A stretch of 64,000 nucleotides of DNA from an uncultured Lachnospiraceae bacterium (GTDB lineage Bacteria; Bacillota; Clostridia; Lachnospirales; Lachnospiraceae), in NCBI GenBank assembly GCA_905234595.1, contig CAJOID010000001.1:1-64000 (forward strand). Reading direction: 5' to 3'. Numbering within the stretch: position 1 is the first letter of the stretch; each line of letters opens with the position of its first letter. The position numbers and the translations under genes were made by a program. This document shows, one piece after another, positions 3,456 through 42,970 of this stretch. A model generated the notes under the pieces. It worked only from the letters and a program-made list of their open reading frames with translations. It was not told the origin of the DNA and searched no databases.

Positions 3456-3593
3456 TCAATTAATTCACAGGTACTCACATGTGTCTTTCTAATGTGTTCG
3501 TGCAGCACATATATGTCGAGCGGACGCATACGCATCAGCTCACAAAAGATGCCTACACAAAAATATTAGTTCTGTTTGTGGTACAAACTATAA

Positions 3594-4013
3594 TTACTTC
3601 GCAGCCTTGGGCTTCTTGGCACCGTACTTACTACGTGCCTGCTTACGATTGGCTACGCCTGCCGTATCCAGCGTACCGCGGATGATGTGGTATCTGGTAC
3701 CGGGCAGATCCTTAACCCTGCCGCCTCTGATGAGGACAACGCTATGCTCCTGAAGGTTGTGGCCTTCACCGGGGATATAGCTTGTAACCTCAATGCCGTT
3801 AGACAGACGTACTCTGGCTATCTTACGAAGGGCTGAGTTAGGCTTCTTGGGGGTTGCGGTCTTAACAGCAGTGCACACACCACGCTTCTGGGGTGAAGGT
3901 GTGTCTATAGCAGTCTTGTGCAGAGAGTTGTAGCTCTTCTGCAGAGCAGGTGCTGTAGACTTCTTAACTGATGTCTGACGTCCCTTTCTGACCAACTGAT
4001 TGAATGTAGGCAT
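3594..4013 (-). CDS. rpsL: 30S ribosomal protein S12
   Basis: Decoding-centre protein, 139 residues from the ATG at 4013 ([11 protein letters not shown]). The longer ORF of the track starts 17 codons too early; GAAAGGAGAC lies seven bases before this ATG. The conserved [11 protein letters not shown] and the loop around KDLPGTRYH, where streptomycin-resistance changes occur in other species, are intact and look wild type. It is the first gene of the str operon. Confidence 0.98.
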
Positions 4014-4089
4014 ATCTTTTGTCTCCTTTCTTATTATTTCGCGTATCCGCGCGGATTTAAGCAAAATAAAACCACACCCACGCTAGAAT

Positions 4090-4118
4090 ATTATACGCAC
4101 GCATGGTTCCAATGTCAA
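4090..4118 (-). promoter_or_regulatory. Consensus SigA promoter of the str operon
   Basis: Minus strand TTGACA, 17 bases, TATAAT: a perfect consensus. The transcript would start about 75 bases before rpsL. The leader holds a CG-rich palindrome (ATCCGCGCGGAT, 4045-4056) just before the ribosome binding site, which could fold over it; a regulatory role is only a guess. Confidence 0.9.
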
Positions 4119-4149
4119 ACATTTATTTATATATCAGGCTTTATAAACC

Positions 4150-4599
4150 TCAGAACAGCAGATTGAGCGTCTGCTTCTCCTCTTCGACAAGAGAACCCGT
4201 GGTCTCCAGTTTCCATCTGGTCACGGTATAGAATGTATCGCCTGCTGCCGCGGGATAATTCACCTTAACGCTTACATCCAGCGTCTGCACATCGGATACG
4301 GGGATCGCGAAATCAATGTTCTGTCCCGCCTGAGCAAAGTAATCGTCCGAGTTCACTCCGGATTCATACAGCGTTTTCAGCGTATTATCTATATCGGCGA
4401 GTCTGTCCTCGGCCTGATTGCAGGCATCATAATATCCCGCCGTTCTTTCCACGACTTTATCATTCAGTTTTTTATCGGCTCTGGCGGATACGGTGGCAAG
4501 TGTGGCAAAAGAAACCAGGCACATTACCACAAAAACGAGCAGAAGCGATGATGTTCCCACGTTTACGCCGGTCGTTTCCTTTTTTCTCTTAATGCTCAT
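4150..4599 (-). CDS. Small membrane-anchored protein of the pilin-like cluster
   Basis: 149 residues from the ATG at 4599. This start overlaps the stop of the preceding gene as ATGA and has GGAGG nine bases upstream; the track start 19 codons earlier is less likely. A basic N-terminus (IKRKKETTG) precedes one hydrophobic segment at about residues 15-40, then an extracellular domain of about 110 residues with a predicted helix and a beta-rich end. No family recognised. Position as last gene of a GspF/pilin operon and the single N-terminal TM suggest a minor pseudopilin or an assembly partner, though no clear prepilin cleavage motif is visible. Confidence 0.6.
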   Translation of the reverse strand: MSIKRKKETTGVNVGTSSLLLVFVVMCLVSFATLATVSARADKKLNDKVVERTAGYYDACNQAEDRLADIDNTLKTLYESGVNSDDYFAQAGQNIDFAIPVSDVQTLDVSVKVNYPAAAGDTFYTVTRWKLETTGSLVEEEKQTLNLLF

Positions 4600-5102
4600 C
4601 TGCCGGCCTCCATTCTGTACGGTACGTGATACTTCACATCCTGCGATGCTATACATGTACCGGTTGCGACTTCATATACTTCAAAAGAGGCGATCATCAT
4701 GTCCCCGGGTTCTGCAGGCGTATCTGCCGTATAAGCATGACCGTCGGTGTCTGTCACCGATATGCTGGCTATATACACGGGCTCCCCGTCCGAAGCAGGC
4801 ATCTCTTTCCATGATTCATCGTATCCGATGGCGAGTGTCCCTGCCGTATCACCGGCGCGGACCTTACCGGTGCCGTCGGCATCGTACAGATCGCATACGG
4901 CACTTACATCTCCTTCACAACCCAGAAACTGTTCAGCCAGGTTCTGTACTATTACAGTACCCTGAGCAGTCATCTTCGTGGATTCATTAGTACTGTATGC
5001 ATACACGAACAGCTGAACGCATACTACTGCCGATATCGAGAAGAACAGGATTACTATGATCAGTTCCATCAGGAACAGGCTTGTCTTGGAGTTGGTGTTC
5101 AC
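4596..5102 (-). CDS. Pseudopilin-like protein
   Basis: 168 residues. GTG start at 5102 with ATAGGAG seven bases upstream. The N-terminus is short and polar, then SLFLMELIIVILFFSIS: a hydrophobic helix with a glutamate at its head, as in type IV pilins and type II pseudopilins, where that residue follows the processing site. The canonical Gly before the helix is replaced, so cleavage by a normal prepilin peptidase is uncertain. The C-terminal domain is soluble and mostly beta. Translationally coupled to the next gene. Role inferred: subunit of a short pilus or secretion pseudopilus. Confidence 0.6.
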   Translation of the reverse strand: MNTNSKTSLFLMELIIVILFFSISAVVCVQLFVYAYSTNESTKMTAQGTVIVQNLAEQFLGCEGDVSAVCDLYDADGTGKVRAGDTAGTLAIGYDESWKEMPASDGEPVYIASISVTDTDGHAYTADTPAEPGDMMIASFEVYEVATGTCIASQDVKYHVPYRMEAGR

Positions 5103-5122
5103 TGTTTTCTCCTATTATATAT

Positions 5123-5620
5123 CTACATGTCGGAACCTGAGCCCGTATGCGAGCTCACATACACCTGCATGCTCTTGCCGTCTGCAAATGACAGATCCAC
5201 CCTGGACAGTTTCGGGGTGACCGGGGTGATCTCAAACGAATCAAGTTCCAGGATCTTAGTCCCTGCAGCAGGTTCCATATCCATATCGGCCCTGGCGAGC
5301 AGTTCGCAGAGATATCCGTCATATTCATATATATAAGTGTTATATATGGTATTATTTATCTCCTGTGTAAAGACACAGGCATCAGTCCCGCCGAAATCGG
5401 CAAACGACAAAGCTCCGGCCTCATCATTCTGACGGAGTTTCTGGGTGATATATGCATAAGAAGTCCTGTCGGTGAAGCTCTCGTCCATATGATCGACGGT
5501 GCTCCGGTATACATTCGCTCCCAGTACCACCAGTGTCAGCGCGGACAGCGCAAACACAAAGAAAAGTGTCAGGACGAACAATATGTCCACCATATGTTTT
5601 CTGTCGCCTTTAAAATCCAT
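5123..5620 (-). CDS. DUF4860-type membrane-anchored protein
   Basis: 165 residues with one N-terminal membrane segment at about 12-36 (ILFVLTLFFVFALSALTLVV) preceded by a charged DFKGDRKH. The rest is exported, with alternating acidic and aromatic residues and a Ser/Gly tail. Length and pattern fit the DUF4860 proteins that occur with GspF and pilins in Lachnospiraceae; this is from memory and needs a profile search. The sequence MVDILFVLTLFFVF also resembles TadE/ExbD-like anchors. An AGAGGA site precedes the ATG. Likely a minor pilin-like component. Confidence 0.55.
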   Translation of the reverse strand: MDFKGDRKHMVDILFVLTLFFVFALSALTLVVLGANVYRSTVDHMDESFTDRTSYAYITQKLRQNDEAGALSFADFGGTDACVFTQEINNTIYNTYIYEYDGYLCELLARADMDMEPAAGTKILELDSFEITPVTPKLSRVDLSFADGKSMQVYVSSHTGSGSDM

Positions 5621-5628
5621 ATCGTCCT

Positions 5629-5970
5629 CTACTTATCCTCTGCCAGCCGGATGATCGTGATATCCGGATATATATTGCTTCCTATGGACTGATAATCCAC
5701 ATAAAAGAGATCTTCATTGTATGTAAGTCCGTAGTGGTCCACGAGATATCCCAGATTGGGCGGATAGGTTCCCTCTACCGCATAGCACTGTGCCACGTCC
5801 CGTGATATGGCCTTCTCAAGACTCTCCTGCTGGCCGTCCAGCGATGAGGAGCTGACATAGTTTACTCCGAGCAGGAACACGGCTATCACTATGATACCCA
5901 TCACCAGAGGCAGGAATTTCATTGCCTTATTTAATATAGTAGCTTTTCTACCTGAGCTGAATCTGTTCAT
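5629..5970 (-). CDS. Small pilin-cluster membrane protein
   Basis: 113 residues: a basic N-terminus (RFSSGRKATILNKAMK), one TM at about 19-36, then a soluble domain containing CYAVEGTYPPNLGYLVDHYGL. The motif Y-A-x-EGxYPxNLxYL resembles the start of the C-terminal domain of GspG-type major pseudopilins (YPPTLAAL-like). This supports a pseudopilin-derived fold, although there is no prepilin leader. Eight bases separate it from the next gene, so it belongs to the same operon. Confidence 0.55.
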   Translation of the reverse strand: MNRFSSGRKATILNKAMKFLPLVMGIIVIAVFLLGVNYVSSSSLDGQQESLEKAISRDVAQCYAVEGTYPPNLGYLVDHYGLTYNEDLFYVDYQSIGSNIYPDITIIRLAEDK

Positions 5971-5986
5971 ACTTCTTATACGTCAC

Positions 5987-7030
5987 TTATCCGATCGAAC
6001 TCATGATGCCCATGAGAGGCAGGATGACCGACAGCAGGATCATGCCGACTATAAGCGACAGGATGATCACAAGCGTAGGCTCGAGTACCGCGATGATATC
6101 ATGGATCCTCTTATCGACTTCCTTATCATAATCATCCGCGATCCTGTTCATCGCTTCCTGCGGATTACCTGATTTAAAACCTATCGATGCCATACGTGAC
6201 TGGATGCTTGAGAATATCTCGGCTTCCTTCAGCGCCTCGGCATACTCCCTGCCCTCGAGGAGCAGTTCCTTACATTTGGCGATCTTTGCGCTCATACGGT
6301 CATTATCGATCAGACCCGCTACCAGGTCGAATCCCTCATAGGTATCCATTCTGCCGTATACCATGGCTATACCGCTGGCGAAACGGCTGCATGCCACCGC
6401 ATCATTGAACTTGCGGGTCGGCGGAAATGCATCAACGAATCTGGCGAACATCCTGCGGCCTGCCGGAACCTTGGAGAAAAAGATGAAAGCCACAATGATC
6501 ACGCAAAGGATCACAACCAGAACTATGGATGACGAACTGAGCCTGTTACCGAAGTTCATCAGGCTTAACGAAAAAGCATTCATCTGGCTTCCGAGCTGTG
6601 TGAATACCTGGTTAAAGATCGGCAGGACTTTGGTGATCAGGACTATGATGACGAGCAGCATCATGAATATCATGATCATGGGATAGGTGACGGCGTTTTT
6701 GATACCCTCGGATATAGCCTCCTGCCTGTCGTAATAGTCAGCCAGAGAGTGGCATATCGCCTTATCGTCACCGGCACGCAGTCCCAGACGTACCATGCGG
6801 ATAACATGCTCCGGAAAAGCCCCTGTCTTCTCAAGTGCCACATCAAACTGGCCATGCTCGGTGAGTTCCGTCACGATCTGTTCCAGACACGCACGTGCCG
6901 ACGGGCTCTTTGTATCCTTCAGCATGGTCTCAATGCCCTCGCGATAGTAGATACCGCCGTCCAGGAGCATCGCCAGCTGACCGAAGAATGTAGCCAGTTC
7001 GGCATTGCTTAGTTTCTTTTGGTTCGCCAT
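5987..7030 (-). CDS. Type II secretion/type IV pilus inner-membrane protein, GspF/PilC family
   Basis: 347 residues with the two repeated T2SSF domains typical of GspF and PilC: cytoplasmic helical bundles at about 8-130 and 205-325, membrane segments near 132-155, 180-200 and 325-345. These proteins form the membrane platform that couples an assembly ATPase to pilin polymerisation. AAGGAAG lies before the ATG. No GspE/PilB ATPase, prepilin peptidase or secretin is encoded in the window, so the motor must be elsewhere or absent. Four pilin-like proteins follow directly in the same operon. Confidence 0.85.
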   Translation of the reverse strand: MANQKKLSNAELATFFGQLAMLLDGGIYYREGIETMLKDTKSPSARACLEQIVTELTEHGQFDVALEKTGAFPEHVIRMVRLGLRAGDDKAICHSLADYYDRQEAISEGIKNAVTYPMIMIFMMLLVIIVLITKVLPIFNQVFTQLGSQMNAFSLSLMNFGNRLSSSSIVLVVILCVIIVAFIFFSKVPAGRRMFARFVDAFPPTRKFNDAVACSRFASGIAMVYGRMDTYEGFDLVAGLIDNDRMSAKIAKCKELLLEGREYAEALKEAEIFSSIQSRMASIGFKSGNPQEAMNRIADDYDKEVDKRIHDIIAVLEPTLVIILSLIVGMILLSVILPLMGIMSSIG

Positions 7031-7054
7031 TGGTTCTTCCTTTCTGTCCCCTGC

Positions 7055-8122
7055 TTAGTATATATATTTGGTATCGTAATTGGATCCGTCTCCGATGAAC
7101 TCCTGCAACTCGGCAGCACTTGCGCTGGCTGCAAAAGTAGGATCCATGAGTTCCCAGCTCGTTCCGTTAAACTCTATTATCCCGTTTACCCATCCGGTCT
7201 CCTTGAGGTATACCGATATCCATGCATGATAAGCCGTGCTGGCGTATCCCACCTCCAGATGAGTGGGTATGCCCTGGCTCCTGAGCATGGACGCGGTCAG
7301 GCACGCGTAATCCAGACAGATACCGGTGCATGAATGCAATGTCCTGTCGGGATCCGGCAGATACCCGCTCTCCACTGTATTCGCCAGTTCGGTATCATAG
7401 GTCACGTTCTGCACCATATAGTTGTACACATAGGTGACAACATCCAGATCCGTGTTGGCCGGATATGCCAGTTCCTCGGCCTTGGCCACACAGTCGTTAT
7501 CGGCAGTGAAGTTGACATACTGGTTCGGATACAGATACGGACCGTATTCGTCCGTAATGGTAACATCGAAATCAGTCCTGAAACATGTCGAGTACTCTGT
7601 TCCCGCCACGTTCTCAAATATACCGATGGAATATGTACCGCTGTCGACCGTAAGCGGAAAGACTTCAACTCCGCCGCCTATCGTCAGGTTATACGTGTAT
7701 GTGGTGGTATTCGGACAAGTGAGCTGCATCTTGACCTTGGGACTGGATCCGAAATACTCCACTGATATATATCCGTCGGAAGAATTGGATGCATCCACAC
7801 TCACCAGGTCATTACCGAAAACTACGGTGCCCGGCTGGGTAGGAACCCTGACCACGGGGGTATTGTCACGTGTGCCGGGACCGCTGGGTACGGGCTCTGC
7901 CTCTGCGGCAGCCTCTCCCGATGCAGGTGTACTCTGAGCACCTGCATCATCGCCGGATTTCTGTCCGTCCGACCCGAGTGCAAAAGGCAATCCGCCGTCC
8001 TCACTGCCGGACGAGGACGATGCGCCATCCACATACGCTGCGGATCCGCATCCGGTGAAGCTTAAGCACACTGACATAAGTAAAGCCACTATGCATTTAT
8101 TGTGTGATCTGTTGTTGTTCAT
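7055..8122 (-). CDS. Transglutaminase-like lipoprotein
   Basis: 355 residues. A lipoprotein signal peptide ends LSFTGC, with lipidated Cys25, then a low-complexity Ser/Ala/Pro-rich linker to about residue 90 and a beta domain to about 200. A transglutaminase-like cysteine protease fold follows, with Cys269 (TGICLDYA), His299 (YHAW) and Asp327 (MDPTF) as the expected triad. Such proteins cleave or cross-link peptides, often in the wall. It is the gene before the GspF-like gene and may process or anchor the pilin-like products; this is inferred from position. The ribosome binding site is weak. Confidence 0.8.
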   Translation of the reverse strand: MNNNRSHNKCIVALLMSVCLSFTGCGSAAYVDGASSSSGSEDGGLPFALGSDGQKSGDDAGAQSTPASGEAAAEAEPVPSGPGTRDNTPVVRVPTQPGTVVFGNDLVSVDASNSSDGYISVEYFGSSPKVKMQLTCPNTTTYTYNLTIGGGVEVFPLTVDSGTYSIGIFENVAGTEYSTCFRTDFDVTITDEYGPYLYPNQYVNFTADNDCVAKAEELAYPANTDLDVVTYVYNYMVQNVTYDTELANTVESGYLPDPDRTLHSCTGICLDYACLTASMLRSQGIPTHLEVGYASTAYHAWISVYLKETGWVNGIIEFNGTSWELMDPTFAASASAAELQEFIGDGSNYDTKYIY

Positions 8123-37970: not shown

Positions 37971-39038
37971 TCAATACTCTCCGGGCTTCTCCTCGCCGTT
38001 CATAACTCTCAGACCGCCCTGAGCAAGAGCAAGCAGCTCATCCTCTCCGGGATATACGGTGAAGGGTGCGATCCATTCGCAGTTGTCCTTCAGTGCCTGA
38101 ACCACTACCTTGTCATAAGCGATACCGCCGGTCACGATGATCTGGTCAACTTTGCCCTGCAGTACACATGCCATGGAGCCGATGTCCTTGCTCATCTGCA
38201 TGATGAATGCATCTCTGGCAAGCTTGGCATCAGCATTGCCCTCGTCAACCATCTTATCTACATCACGCATATCATTGGAACCTACATATGCGTTGAATCC
38301 GCCGTTGCCGACAAGTTTCTTATATACTTCCTTCTCGGTATACTTACCGGAGAAGCACATCTTGACAAGGCTTCCGACGGGTACCGCACCTGCTCTCTCG
38401 GGCGAGAATGCTCCGTCTCCGTCAAGTGCGTTATTGATATCAACCACGCGTCCGTGCTTATGAGGACCTACGGATACTCCGCCGCCCATATGTACGACGA
38501 TGAGGTTCAGGTCTTCGTATTTTTTACCTACCTCTGCAGCATATCTTCTGGCCACAGCCTTCTGATTGAGTGCGTGGAATATGGATACGCGGGGAAGCTC
38601 CGGTACACCGGAGAGCCTGGAAGCGGGCTCCAGCTCGTCTACCACCACGGGATCCACAATGTATGAAGGTACTCCGATCGAATCACCGATCTCACGTGCG
38701 AGTATTCCGCCGAGGTTGGATGCGTGCTGTCCGCTCACACCTACCTTCAGATCCTCGAGCAGCTTATCGGTCACGGGATATGTACCGCCAGGTATGGGTT
38801 TGAGCATGCCGCCACGGCCCACGACCACGTTGAAGCTTTTTAAATCTATTCCCTTCGACTCCAGGAACTTCACGATGATGTCCTTACGGAAGTCCTTCTG
38901 ATCAACGATGGTCTCAAACTGTGCGATCTCCTCGGTGGAGTGACGCAGTGTCTCGTCGAAAACAAGAGTCTCATCATCGAATACACCGATCTTGGTGGAT
39001 GTCGAACCGGGATTGATTATCAATGAACGAATTGCCAT
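37971..39038 (-). CDS. buk: Butyrate kinase
   Basis: 355 residues. Converts butyryl phosphate plus ADP to butyrate plus ATP, the last step of butyrate formation. ASKHA kinase motifs: [18 protein letters not shown] at the N-terminus, [16 protein letters not shown] near 75, [12 protein letters not shown] near 185, VTGGIAYDK near 300. The partner phosphate butyryltransferase lies 43 bases upstream in the same unit. The acyl preference (butyrate or branched acids) cannot be told from sequence alone, but context supports butyrate. Confidence 0.95.
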
Positions 39039-39081
39039 TTTATCTCCTTTCTGTCCTGCCTGTCGCCTGACGTGCGACGGA

Positions 39082-39993
39082 TCACTTCATGCTCTCGGCA
39101 ACTACTGCTGCCAGTGCGATGGAATTAACCTTGGTCTCGCAGTTATCCGATCTGGATGTCAGGATCACGGGAGCCTTGGTACCTGTAAGGATGTTACCGT
39201 TCTTCATGTCAGCCATGTGTACGATAGCCTTGTATACGAGGTTACCTGCATGTATATCAGGGAAAAGGAGGATGTCTGCATCGCCTGCTACCTTACGCCC
39301 CAGAGCGCCCTTTTCCTCAGCTGCTTCCTTATACAGTGCGATATCCAAGGACAGAGGACCGTCCACGATACATCCTGTGATCTCGCCTTCCTCATTCAGT
39401 CTGGTGAGCTCTGCAGCTTCAACCGTGGTAGGCATTTTCTCATTAACGACCTCAACAGCCGCAAGAGGAGCAACCTTAGGCATCTCCACGCCGCAGGCCT
39501 TCGCAATATCCACGGTATACTTGATGATCCACTTCTTATCCTCGAGTGTCGGGTAAGGCATGAATGCAACGTCTGTCAGGAACAGCAGTCTGTCGATACC
39601 CTTGATCTCGAATACGCATACGTGAGAAAGGGGAGAACCGGTACGGAGACCGACTTCCTTATCAAGCACGCTCTTAAGGAACGTCTTGGTATCAAGAAGT
39701 CCCTTCATATACATATCGGCTTTTCCGTCGTGGACGAGTGATACTGCCTTAAGTGATGCAGCTACGGTATCCTTCTCATCTATGATCTCGTACTCGTCCA
39801 TATTCATGCCCAGCTCGGCACCTATGGCACGTATCTGATCCTCATCACCTACCAGTATGGAATCGGCGATATTACGCTCCTTGGCAGCCTTCACTGCCTC
39901 CAGTACGGCCTTGTCCTGTGCGCATGCTACGGACAGCTTCTTTTTGCTGCATTTCTCTACGCGGGAAAGCAGGTCTTCAAAACTCTTGCTCAT
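39082..39993 (-). CDS. ptb: Phosphate butyryltransferase
   Basis: 303 residues of the phosphate acetyl/butyryltransferase family (PTA_PTB). Makes butyryl phosphate from butyryl-CoA and phosphate. Typical segments: [22 protein letters not shown] near 28, [16 protein letters not shown] near 105, [20 protein letters not shown] near 215, [19 protein letters not shown] near 235. CAGGAGGATGAC precedes the ATG. With buk it gives the classic ATP-yielding route to butyrate, used as alternative to butyryl-CoA:acetate CoA-transferase. Confidence 0.95.
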
Positions 39994-40033: not shown

Positions 40034-40062
40034 ATTATACTGCTAAAGGAAGGGGGGTTCAA
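40034..40062 (-). promoter_or_regulatory. SigA promoter of ptb-buk
   Basis: Minus strand TTGAAC, 17 bases, TATAAT. The -35 box overlaps the last codons of the upstream nuclease gene. Confidence 0.85.
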
Positions 40063-40997
40063 GTGAGGGGAGAGGACATGGCCTGCTCTGTGAGCATAGC
40101 ACGGAGCTCCGCGATCTGCTTGCTGAGCTCAGCATTCTGCGACTTAAGTTCAGCGATTTCTTTATCACGCTCGGCAATCTGCCTTTCATTCTTCGCGATC
40201 TGTTTTTCATTCTCCGCGATCTGTTTTTCATTCTCCGCGATCTGCCTGTCCTGCTCAGCCAGCCGTTCTCTGCGATGCCTGTCACCATCGATTTCTTCCT
40301 GACTCTTTTTACAGAGTTCCAACACCCAGGGTTCGGTAACACTGCTGTACATTGACTCCGCTGCGGATTCGATATAAGGATCTGTCTGTGCTAACATTTT
40401 AACCTCCTCCCATGTGGTAGATTTGAAGAGGGCTGCCCATTTGTCTATCCCATAGGCTTTATCCTCTTCGGTTGCCATATCTATGTGGTTCAATTCTACA
40501 ACCGCCAAAGTCAGCTTGTCACTATACACATTGCCAGTTTTGAGGTCTGACATACGATATGTGGAATAGAACGAAGTCTGTCCGTTGAAAAGTGTATAAT
40601 CGAGGAATCCGACATGATATACAGGCTTAACCTGTGAATAATCATCTCCGTGGTGCAGGTTCGTATACTCACGGCACAGATAATACAGAGAACGCGGAAT
40701 CCAGTTATAAAAATTATGTACCTGCATCTCAAGATCCATGATCGATCCGTCATTATATGATACGAGTATGTCAAGGACTGTATTCTTTTCCTGCGGCTGA
40801 TGTCCATAGATGAGCGGATTTTGGATGACTATATTCCTTATGGAAGACGGATCCAGATGCAGCAGTGAAGCGATGAGACCGGTCAGTGCTTTGTGGTTGT
40901 TCTGAAAAACGATGTGGAATAGTGCATCGTTCGTCATGTTGTAGGCGACCGGGCCGGAAGCCTGTGACAATGGTACAGGTTGTAGATCGGGATACAT
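40059..40997 (-). CDS. Rpn-like PD-(D/E)XK nuclease/transposase family protein
   Basis: 312 residues from the ATG at 40997, which has AAGGAGG seven bases upstream; the track start is 24 codons too early. The N-terminal nuclease-like domain reads NDALFHIVFQNNHKALTGLIASLL, then LDILV...DLEMQV (the D...ExQ form of PD-(D/E)XK). These proteins (Rpn, 'PDDEXK transposase') promote RecA-independent recombination in Escherichia coli or act in phage defence. The C-terminal ~80 residues are a coiled coil of seven-residue units (QIAENEK) encoded by 21-base DNA repeats. Own promoter upstream. Catalytic residues look intact. Confidence 0.85.
   Translation of the reverse strand: MYPDLQPVPLSQASGPVAYNMTNDALFHIVFQNNHKALTGLIASLLHLDPSSIRNIVIQNPLIYGHQPQEKNTVLDILVSYNDGSIMDLEMQVHNFYNWIPRSLYYLCREYTNLHHGDDYSQVKPVYHVGFLDYTLFNGQTSFYSTYRMSDLKTGNVYSDKLTLAVVELNHIDMATEEDKAYGIDKWAALFKSTTWEEVKMLAQTDPYIESAAESMYSSVTEPWVLELCKKSQEEIDGDRHRRERLAEQDRQIAENEKQIAENEKQIAKNERQIAERDKEIAELKSQNAELSKQIAELRAMLTEQAMSSPLT
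40173..40256 (-). repeat. Four 21-base tandem repeats encoding coiled-coil heptads
   Basis: Four consecutive 21-base units, two of them identical, each coding one QIAENEK-type heptad in the C-terminus of the Rpn-like protein. Being in-frame and heptad-sized, slippage would change coiled-coil length without a frameshift. Confidence 0.85.
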
Positions 40998-41161
40998 GTG
41001 ATAACCTCCTTGCACGATGCGGTAATCCATACACGGATCACCGGAAAACAGGCATAAACATGCCATCACAGTTACATATCGGTGTTATTGGATTACAGAG
41101 GTTAATACCTCCGGAGGAAGAGAAACTTCCTCGTCGCACTCGTGGAAGCAAGTGCTATATG

Positions 41162-41190
41162 AATGTAGCATAAATAAACGGTTAATTCAA
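41162..41190 (-). promoter_or_regulatory. Promoter of the Rpn-like gene
   Basis: Minus strand TTGAAT, 17 bases, TACATT, overlapping the stop of the 139-residue gene. A seven-base hairpin (GAGGAAG/CTTCCTC) follows within the long leader of about 155 bases, which holds no ORF I can support. Confidence 0.6.
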
Positions 41191-41606
41191 GTTTGAGTAC
41201 CAAAGAGATAGTTTAAATAATTATCGTGGAAATCCACGCTTATTCTACCCACGATATCCGCGAAGCATTTCGCGCCGAAATCTTCAAATTTCACCCAATA
41301 GTTGTCGAGATTGTTGTTGCCGTTGTTGTGGCGGATGTATGCATCGAAATCGAATCTCTCCATTCCGATATTACGGAGATGCTCCCTGTAGAACATGCAT
41401 CCCTCTTTCATCGTACGGCGTTCGAAGAACTCATTCAGGTTCCCATATGTGATGCCGTATAAAGCCAGCTCGGGAGGAAACAGCCTGCCCTCGTTCATGT
41501 CAATGGCTTTGATGAGCCGCCTGTCCCTGACTTCAAAATCAAGAAGCGGTGTATCCAGATAGTACAGTATGCCTTTCAGGTTATTGATCAGTCTCACTTC
41601 TGCCAT
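41187..41606 (-). CDS. Partner protein of the HipA-like kinase, unknown family
   Basis: 139 residues, no TM, overlapping the kinase gene by 13 bases, so the two are translationally coupled. It shows LLDFEVRDRRLIKA near 21, LALYGITYGNLNEFFERRTM near 47 and LDNYWVKFED near 100. I recall similar small proteins beside HipA-like kinases in Lachnospiraceae but cannot name a family. It does not look like HipB (no helix-turn-helix) or HipS. It could be an antitoxin, substrate or adaptor of the kinase. Confidence 0.65.
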   Translation of the reverse strand: MAEVRLINNLKGILYYLDTPLLDFEVRDRRLIKAIDMNEGRLFPPELALYGITYGNLNEFFERRTMKEGCMFYREHLRNIGMERFDFDAYIRHNNGNNNLDNYWVKFEDFGAKCFADIVGRISVDFHDNYLNYLFGTQT

Positions 41607-42808
41607 ATCTCGAGGATCCTCCTCTCGTATTCGAGTGCGTATGGTGTATGCAGGATATCCGGATAGACCACCTTATCTATCCCCGGGTACATAGCTTTCA
41701 GATCAAACTCTTCATCCAGCATGCGTAACATATCAAACGGATCTTCTCCGTAGGGCGAAACATATACATTTCTCATCGCCTCGTCAAATGACTCATATCT
41801 GTCCCTGTAGGGATCGTTCTCAAACAGGCCCATTCCATTATCGAACACGGGAGGGATCTCATATGCGCCCGATCCGGTATTGAAAAACAGTCCGAAATTC
41901 CTCGTATGCCTGTCAATATTACCTACCATGCAATCCAATACTGCCAGGCCGGTCATGTACTTAAGTGTCTCATCATATGGGAGTGCCCCCGCCTCAGACA
42001 GCTGCATTGCACACCACTTAAGCTTATCCAGTGCCCCAAGAGATATGAAATCATCATCTCTCGATGTCAACCCGTGCCGCTCTATCAGCCTCTCGAACGA
42101 AATAAACGTATATCCGTCCAATTCAAAATTACGCGAATATACACCATCATATGAGCGGCCCTCATAGACAAACTGACATGGTTTCTGTTCTATACAGGGT
42201 ATCGACAACTGTCTGCATATATCCGTAGCGATCACTTCCACCGCCCAGTCACGCAGCGCTACTCCGGAAATGACCGCCTGTGACTTGATGAACAACCGCC
42301 GGTCATGTGTCAATGCCTTCATCTGATACCCGTCTGTATCCGTCCTGTGTATGACACGGTCTTTTCTGGAAAAAGTAAATACCGGAATCGCATCAAATAT
42401 ACCGGCATCTCCATCTCTATCCTCAAAAAGATATTGGGCCGGTGATTCTATTCCCCGGTTTCTCAGATACCTGTCATCCAGATACTCCTGCAGGTCCTCC
42501 CGATCCGGGGATGTATTATATCCGAAAGCCAGTTTCGACAGCTGCGAAACATAATTTATCACCCTGACATGCTGCTTCCGGCAATCATAGAAAACAGAAC
42601 TGCACAATTCACCGTCAACGACATGATCTATCCTCACCTCGACCGGCATCTGCGCAGCCTTAAGCCTCTTATCCAGTGCCTGTCTGGACACACCATACTC
42701 AGCGGCGATCGAAGCCACGCTCTCGCCTGCTGCCCGCCTCTCGCGTGCCGACTCTATCTGTTCATCGCTGATCTTAGGTTTTCTGCCTGAGCCTCTGTCA
42801 TTGGGCAT
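41594..42808 (-). CDS. HipA-like protein kinase with N-terminal helix-turn-helix
   Basis: 404 residues. An N-terminal helix-turn-helix of resolvase type (ISDEQIESARERRAAGES, SIAAEYGVSRQALDKRL, residues 13-50) is joined to a HipA-type Ser/Thr kinase. ATP-site Lys175 (LFIKS), Glu191, and the catalytic set Asp299, Asn304 (NIDRHTRNF) and Asp323 (VFDNG) match the spacing of Asp309, Asn314 and Asp332 of Escherichia coli HipA. In standard hipBA the DNA-binding part is a separate protein; here it is fused. Promoter -10 overlaps a large inverted repeat, so self-repression is likely. Probably a toxin-antitoxin or stress-response unit with the following gene. Confidence 0.8.
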   Translation of the reverse strand: MPNDRGSGRKPKISDEQIESARERRAAGESVASIAAEYGVSRQALDKRLKAAQMPVEVRIDHVVDGELCSSVFYDCRKQHVRVINYVSQLSKLAFGYNTSPDREDLQEYLDDRYLRNRGIESPAQYLFEDRDGDAGIFDAIPVFTFSRKDRVIHRTDTDGYQMKALTHDRRLFIKSQAVISGVALRDWAVEVIATDICRQLSIPCIEQKPCQFVYEGRSYDGVYSRNFELDGYTFISFERLIERHGLTSRDDDFISLGALDKLKWCAMQLSEAGALPYDETLKYMTGLAVLDCMVGNIDRHTRNFGLFFNTGSGAYEIPPVFDNGMGLFENDPYRDRYESFDEAMRNVYVSPYGEDPFDMLRMLDEEFDLKAMYPGIDKVVYPDILHTPYALEYERRILEIWQK

Positions 42809-42819
42809 AAATAATCCCT

Positions 42820-42887
42820 CATAATCAGATCAGGATGTTTATACATCCGGTTAATCTGATTATGGGAGATTAAAGAATCTCTGTCAA
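42820..42887 (-). promoter_or_regulatory. Promoter with nested inverted repeat before the HipA-like gene
   Basis: Minus strand TTGACA (42882-42887), 17 bases, CATAAT (42859-42864). The -10 lies in one arm of an inverted repeat CATAATCAGAT/ATCTGATTATG (42820-42830 and 42854-42864), which encloses a second one, GGATG/CATCC. This is a good candidate operator for the fused helix-turn-helix. In RNA the region would fold just before the ribosome binding site GAGGGAT. Confidence 0.8.
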
Positions 42888-42941
42888 CTAATTAATTTGT
42901 TTACAATATCGCCGGAATAATCAGGTTCTTGTATGCTGCCG

Positions 42942-42970
42942 TTTTCTTTTACAGTTCTATAGTTTATAAT
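42942..42970 (+). promoter_or_regulatory. Promoter of the 157-residue gene, leaderless geometry
   Basis: TATAAT at 42965-42970 ends seven bases before the ATG at 42978, with a poor -35 (TTTTCT). No ribosome binding site is present, so the transcript would begin at the start codon. Confidence 0.5.

Follow-up and report, generated by a model that had tools for sequence, protein, structure and literature searches.

A survey of Hip kinases distinguishes the classes hipBA/AB, hipBST, hipEB, hipH, hipRF, hipRG, hipMP, hipL, hipIN, and hipJS (PMC8262856). In HipBST, HipS is the antitoxin of the HipT kinase (PMC10627512, PMC9325769). Here we describe a related gene pair from an uncultured Lachnospiraceae bacterium, located in a window of 64,000 nucleotides (GenBank assembly GCA_905234595.1, contig CAJOID010000001.1, positions 1 to 64,000 of the forward strand). 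The source is a gut-type bacterium, and the gene pair is small and mobile. We consider it probable that the pair is a horizontally acquired chromosomal toxin-antitoxin module of the HipBST kind, in which three functions are redistributed over two genes.

The first gene, P0001 (41594..42808, reverse strand, as are all oriented features of the window given below), encodes 404 residues comprising a helix-turn-helix (HTH), a half-lid, and a kinase domain. The second gene, P0002 (41187..41606), encodes a free-standing, HipS-like lid protein of 139 residues. A preliminary description of the locus reported that the two genes overlap by 13 bases, and direct reading of the open reading frames confirms this (41594..41606, ATGGCAGAAGTGA). 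The overlap is read as WQK-stop in the kinase frame and as MAEV in the partner frame. The ribosome binding site (RBS) of the partner, AGGAGG (41618..41623), lies within the kinase codons for a conserved ERR[MI] motif. The same arrangement is seen in many homologues, where the partner RBS is often inside the ERRM codons at the end of the kinase gene.

The kinase domain spans residues 138-404 of P0001 (41594..42397), as judged from the invariant columns of a kinase alignment (A1) and from the top fold matches. Its Gly-rich loop is R155-K164 (RTDTDGYQMK), followed by Lys175, the catalytic residues Asp299 and Asn304, and the metal-binding Asp323. Gly160, Lys175, Asp299, Asn304, and Asp323 do not vary among the 16 aligned kinases (positions in A1 are lower by one than in P0001, as the first row of the alignment starts without Met1), and the earlier assignment of Asp299, Asn304, and Asp323 as HipA catalytic residues was correctly numbered. 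Residues 160-323 match the Pfam family HipA_C with 24.6 bits, under the cut-off of 30.5 bits, and P0001 is thus a divergent HipA relative; the more distant L017 kinase passes the cut-off with 37.5 bits. CtkA comes first in a PDB sequence search with P0001. A Foldseek search of PDB folds also ranks CtkA first (8.5e-9), followed by HipA (4.5e-6) and HipT (2.4e-5), and P0001 is accordingly modelled with a HipA/HipT-type fold, the confidence of the structure model being moderate (pLDDT 79). In all 16 aligned kinases, Asp157 occupies the position of the autophosphorylation site, Ser150 of HipA or Ser57 of HipT, in a loop register that was aligned by eye to a HipA protein (L002) on Gly160 and Lys164. 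The outgroup kinase of L017 has Ser at the equivalent position. The HipT variant S57D stays toxic yet resists HipS (PMC10627512), so inhibition in the P0001 family must differ in detail. By analogy, its lid would have to cope with a permanently negative Gly-rich loop.

The partner had been described as a protein of no known family, a statement that no longer holds. Searches of P0002 against Pfam, PADLOC, NCBIfam, PHROGs, and PDB sequences returned nothing usable, and a viral fold library gave no match. M1 aminopeptidases, the best PDB sequence matches at E 0.08, were taken as chance and rejected as relatives. The partner profile found a protein of 433 residues (L030) in which a partner-like N-terminal domain is followed by a HipA_C kinase. 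Thirty such one-chain lid-kinase proteins were gathered, and they occur in 27 of 150 family genomes. Compared with their N-terminal domain, the partner profile (A2) aligns over 98 columns (hhalign 96%, E 3.7e-9). By profile comparison, therefore, P0002 represents the lid domain that clostridial one-chain HipA-like kinases have at their N-terminus. A PDB fold search with P0002 gave no significant match among 17, the second being HipS of Escherichia coli HipBST (TM 0.60 by target length, E 4.2) and the third HipA. From the one-chain lid match and the ranks of HipS and HipA we read P0002 as a Hip-kinase lid provided in trans, as in the case of HipS and HipT, and it is probably an inhibitory lid that works like HipS. 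Sequence comparison with the N-domains of two HipA proteins from the same genome gave no match (P0002 was compared with one, a one-chain lid with both). In that genome, two hipBA-type pairs of the ordinary kind, both with full HipA_C kinases, lie near each other on one contig (L001 and L002 on contig C26 of G000).

The N-terminus of the kinase carries a resolvase-type HTH (residues 8-45, 42674..42787) that scores above the cut-off of Pfam HTH_7 (E 9.6e-9), and the DNA-binding domain is indeed part of the kinase chain, as first proposed. It is followed by the half-lid, at about residues 56-116 (42461..42643), which consists of three strands and a helix (56-63, 66-74, 79-84, and 102-116 in the structure model). 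The kinase profile matched two further proteins, L078 and L079, over residues 3-117 only. Each has about 200 residues and combines an HTH with a complete lid. Residues 3-114 of P0001 align to them with an hhalign probability of 99.4% (E 2.5e-21), and the alignment ends where the second half of the lid starts. The half-lid region gave no significant hhalign match to lid profiles directly, and the link runs only through the complete HTH-lid proteins. Relatives of these HTH-lid proteins are common in Lachnospiraceae (49 of 299 genomes) and carry one of two unrelated HTH types, resolvase-type or Xre-type. A HipA-like kinase of about 270 residues adjoins the HTH-lid gene in 26 of 30 inspected loci. 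Elsewhere the same HTH belongs to a complete lid that neighbours a kinase encoded by its own gene. The window family can thus be read as a reshuffled HipB/HipS/HipT set, in which the kinase has gained the resolvase-type HTH along with half a lid, and a full lid has become free. Further layouts were observed in this survey. A 470-residue open reading frame (L063) is a one-chain protein of Xre-type HTH, lid, and kinase. At L008, a second pair directly follows a window-type module (5922-7503) and comprises a 268-residue HipA-like kinase and a 266-residue protein with a lid-like N-terminus and a C-terminal HTH.

The operon has a sigma-70-type promoter, TTGACA-17-CATAAT (42859..42887). Alignment of 16 upstream regions on TGTCAACTAATTAAAAAGTTGACA revealed a palindrome, P1 (TGTAAACAAATTAATTAGTTGACA, 42882..42905), whose right half-site is the -35 hexamer. 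Counting as P1 any TGTCAA-N12-TTGACA with at least 10 of 12 matches, or the N11 form (counted for L007, L079, L080, and L081), the site is found in all 17 window-type operons and in 7 of 10 resolvase-HTH-lid operons, as against 0 of 18 Xre-HTH-lid operons. P1 thus tracks the resolvase-type HTH, whether this is fused to the kinase or to the lid, and it occurs once in its own genome. The association and the single genomic site are good evidence that the HTH reads P1, a predicted operator, and that the module regulates only itself. Judged from its layout, a co-translated gene pair with a candidate autoregulatory operator over its own -35 box, the module would qualify as a type II toxin-antitoxin system. 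The preliminary description had placed the palindromic promoter at the -10 box, within an 11-base inverted repeat that encloses a second one. Both repeats are real, P2 (CATAATCAGAT/ATCTGATTATG, 42820..42864) running from the -10 box to the RBS with 0 of 200 shuffles giving an arm of 11, and the inner 6-bp repeat GGATGT/ACATCC lying within it (42833..42848), but among the operator candidates the palindrome at -35, which had been overlooked, is the best conserved. We rejected the reading of P2 as a hairpin in the normal RNA, since the -10 box lies in its left arm, which is therefore not transcribed from the own promoter. Many relatives carry a repeat, CCTCCATAAT...ATTATGGAGG, that extends over both the -10 box and the RBS. 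This repeat hides the RBS in read-through RNA (probability of a free RBS near 0 in L006, L007, L009, L014, L021, L022, and L029), whereas RNA from the module's own promoter is without the left arm. The window P2 is an expanded, weaker version, and its RBS-hiding effect is weak (0.21 vs 0.48; 12 of 50 shuffles as low). The data from relatives therefore support insulation against read-through by P2-type repeats, while the window gives no statistical support for it. A long P2-like inverted repeat (ACACCCTCCTG/CAGGGAGGTGT) also surrounds the -10 box and RBS upstream of an HTH-lid operon (L086, upstream of 2046, reverse strand).

The two genes are conserved together. A contig scan yielded 20 kinase loci, all in Lachnospiraceae, and a partner homologue is directly downstream of the kinase in all of them but L015, a contig that stops within the kinase gene; wherever a locus extends far enough, kinase and partner are adjacent. 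Homologous gene pairs overlap by 13-23 bp in 14 of 15 cases, as the window pair also does, the exception being L014 with a gap of 17 bp. Whole-genome searches agreed with this: 299 family genomes contained five partner genes, all of them next to a kinase, and full kinases, always accompanied by a partner, turned up in 6 of 392 genomes of the order. Close homologues retain the kinase residues, the HTH, and the partner, as expected of a genuine module; the HTH, present in all 16 aligned kinases, is missing from the distant outgroup L017/L018, which keeps the partner and consists of a plain 264-residue kinase and a lid. At L017, this short kinase and lid (3478-5228) stand directly behind a Uma2 nuclease gene, possibly in one operon.

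The module lies within an accessory insert (40040..42956) that comprises an Rpn gene, the partner, the kinase, and the promoter. The 2.9-kb insert is missing from two sister species (G300 and G301), where the flanks are intact and contiguous with about 31 bp between them, and the kinase is found in one of seven congeneric genomes. The flanking genes at 37971-39993 are of the acetate/butyrate kinase type (by reading) and a phosphate acetyl/butyryl transferase (Pfam). An Rpn-family PDDEXK_2 nuclease/transposase gene (40059..41069, E 2.5e-33) follows the pair, and the early view of this as an accessory spot is borne out by the sister species. Genes of the PDDEXK_2 type are also near L014 and L009, with none at the other inspected loci. 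Because the genes adjoining the module differ from locus to locus, we regard the Rpn gene as cargo of this insert and not as a conserved part of the module. The gene pair was not found on phage, plasmid, or viral contigs; one phage record matched weakly, to the kinase part only. Taken together, the overlap, the co-conservation, the unique candidate operator, and the insert uphold the description of a coupled, apparently self-regulated two-gene accessory module.

In the proposed mechanism, P0001 is the presumed toxin, a HipT-like kinase that carries a HipB-like repressor domain and a half-lid at its N-terminus. The overlapping second gene would supply a free HipS-like lid by coupled translation. 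This lid presumably sits on the kinase and keeps the Gly-rich loop from its ATP-binding form. Complexes of kinase and lid may bind the -35 palindrome through paired HTH domains and thereby shut off their own operon. Upon loss of the free lid, an active Ser/Thr kinase would be released and growth would stop, the target being perhaps a translation factor, as for HipA and HipT. In most relatives, the repeat over the -10 box and RBS would in addition keep read-through transcripts from being translated, as would befit a module whose chromosomal landing sites are random.

The predicted growth arrest could amount to abortive-infection defence. A dedicated anti-phage role, with the lid being removed or modified by an infection that is then aborted by the kinase, is compatible with the toxin-antitoxin reading and seems to us possible but doubtful. 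It would account for the match of the kinase to the PADLOC candidate defence family PDC-M03A (E 7e-13), for the weak match of the lid-HTH protein in the second L008 pair to PDC-M03B (E 0.0027), and for the position of the module on a mobile accessory insert. However, P0002 matches no PADLOC model, the neighbours, read by eye from their open reading frames, do not form a defence island, and PDC-M03 is only a candidate system.

The pattern of conservation bears on a second alternative. Identity within the main clade is 63-80% for the partner vs 50-60% for the kinase, and dN/dS between close pairs is 0.07-0.14 for the partner and 0.15-0.35 for the kinase, which indicates purifying selection on both genes. 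An antitoxin is not usually conserved more strongly than its toxin, and we count the better conservation of the partner against a toxin-antitoxin module. It would fit a regulatory, non-toxic HTH-Ser/Thr kinase for which the small protein is a cofactor or a substrate, and which both modifies itself (or that partner) and governs its own operon or a host process. So would the invariant Asp at the autophosphorylation position, which suggests that there is no phospho-switch there, and the top fold match, CtkA being a proinflammatory kinase of Helicobacter pylori and not a toxin-antitoxin toxin. We nevertheless hold such a regulator to be unlikely, since a housekeeping function for the host fits poorly with patchy presence, clean insertion, and unrelated neighbours, and the one operator in the genome leaves no regulon beyond the module itself. 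It is highly improbable that the pair is an inactive or decaying remnant with reading frames that have survived by chance: the C-terminal tail of the window partner is longer than in relatives and unaligned, but both frames are intact, all motifs, the promoter, and the operator are kept, and dN/dS is low in relatives. We therefore retain the HipBST-like toxin-antitoxin module as the preferred reading, with the invariant Asp157, the lack of a lid sequence match to HipA N-domains, and the moderate kinase model also counted against it.

Several described systems share parts of this layout. HipBST of E. coli O127:H6 and Legionella pneumophila likewise combines an HTH regulator, a free lid (HipS), and a short kinase (HipT) in overlapping genes, and the HipS-like fold is the best-ranked biological match of P0002, though not a significant one. 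In contrast to HipBST, the HTH of the window is of the resolvase type and a half-lid joins it to the kinase, there is no separate HipB gene, the lid gene is downstream, the Gly-rich-loop phosphosite is Asp and not Ser, and the lid is not alignable by sequence to the HipA N-domains tested. The fusion of HTH and kinase had been presented as an unusual layout; this stands with respect to the absent separate HipB of HipBST-type systems, but such a fusion is known from YjjJ/HipH of E. coli K-12, a HipA-family kinase with an N-terminal HTH (PMC8262856). HipH is encoded alone (PMC8262856), whereas the window partner gene overlaps the kinase gene, and the sole match to a YjjJ model reached 11.3 bits vs a cut-off of 401. 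The hipJS class (Gerdes 2021) has a kinase followed by a free HipS-type protein, exactly the layout of L017/L018, but HipJ kinases form a class of 279-321 residues that lacks an HTH, whereas P0001 has both HTH and half-lid. Clostridial operons of HTH-lid and kinase (L079-L109), which possibly overlap with hipRG (Gerdes 2021), share the lid and kinase families with the window, and one subgroup has the same resolvase-type HTH and operator; there the HTH is on the lid, in the window on the kinase. CtkA of H. pylori (PDB 3AKJ/3AKK) is the closest solved kinase fold but is a single protein, and the PDB entries name neither an HTH nor a free lid. The candidate system PDC-M03 shares the kinase, its component A, but P0002 matches no PDC-M03 model and component B gave no match at E up to 10. 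The parts are thus known, and the arrangement of an HTH-half-lid-kinase with a free lid is neither among the surveyed classes (PMC8262856) nor did we find it described elsewhere, although such absence is not proof of novelty. On balance, we lean towards an undescribed Hip class, in which a putative toxin kinase carries an operator-binding domain and a vestigial half-lid, the complete lid acts in trans, the operator is kept with the HTH through swaps between lid and kinase, and a hairpin would block read-through in most relatives.

In Clostridia, the functions that HipBST combines (DNA binding, lid, and kinase) are freely shuffled and occur as lid-kinase, Xre-lid-kinase, HTH-lid + kinase, kinase + lid-HTH, kinase + lid, and HTH-half-lid-kinase + lid. 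These layouts are natural experiments on how lids may inhibit Hip kinases, and they include a family with a natural Asp at the HipA/HipT autophosphorylation position. The link between operator and HTH makes autoregulation directly testable in a simple system.
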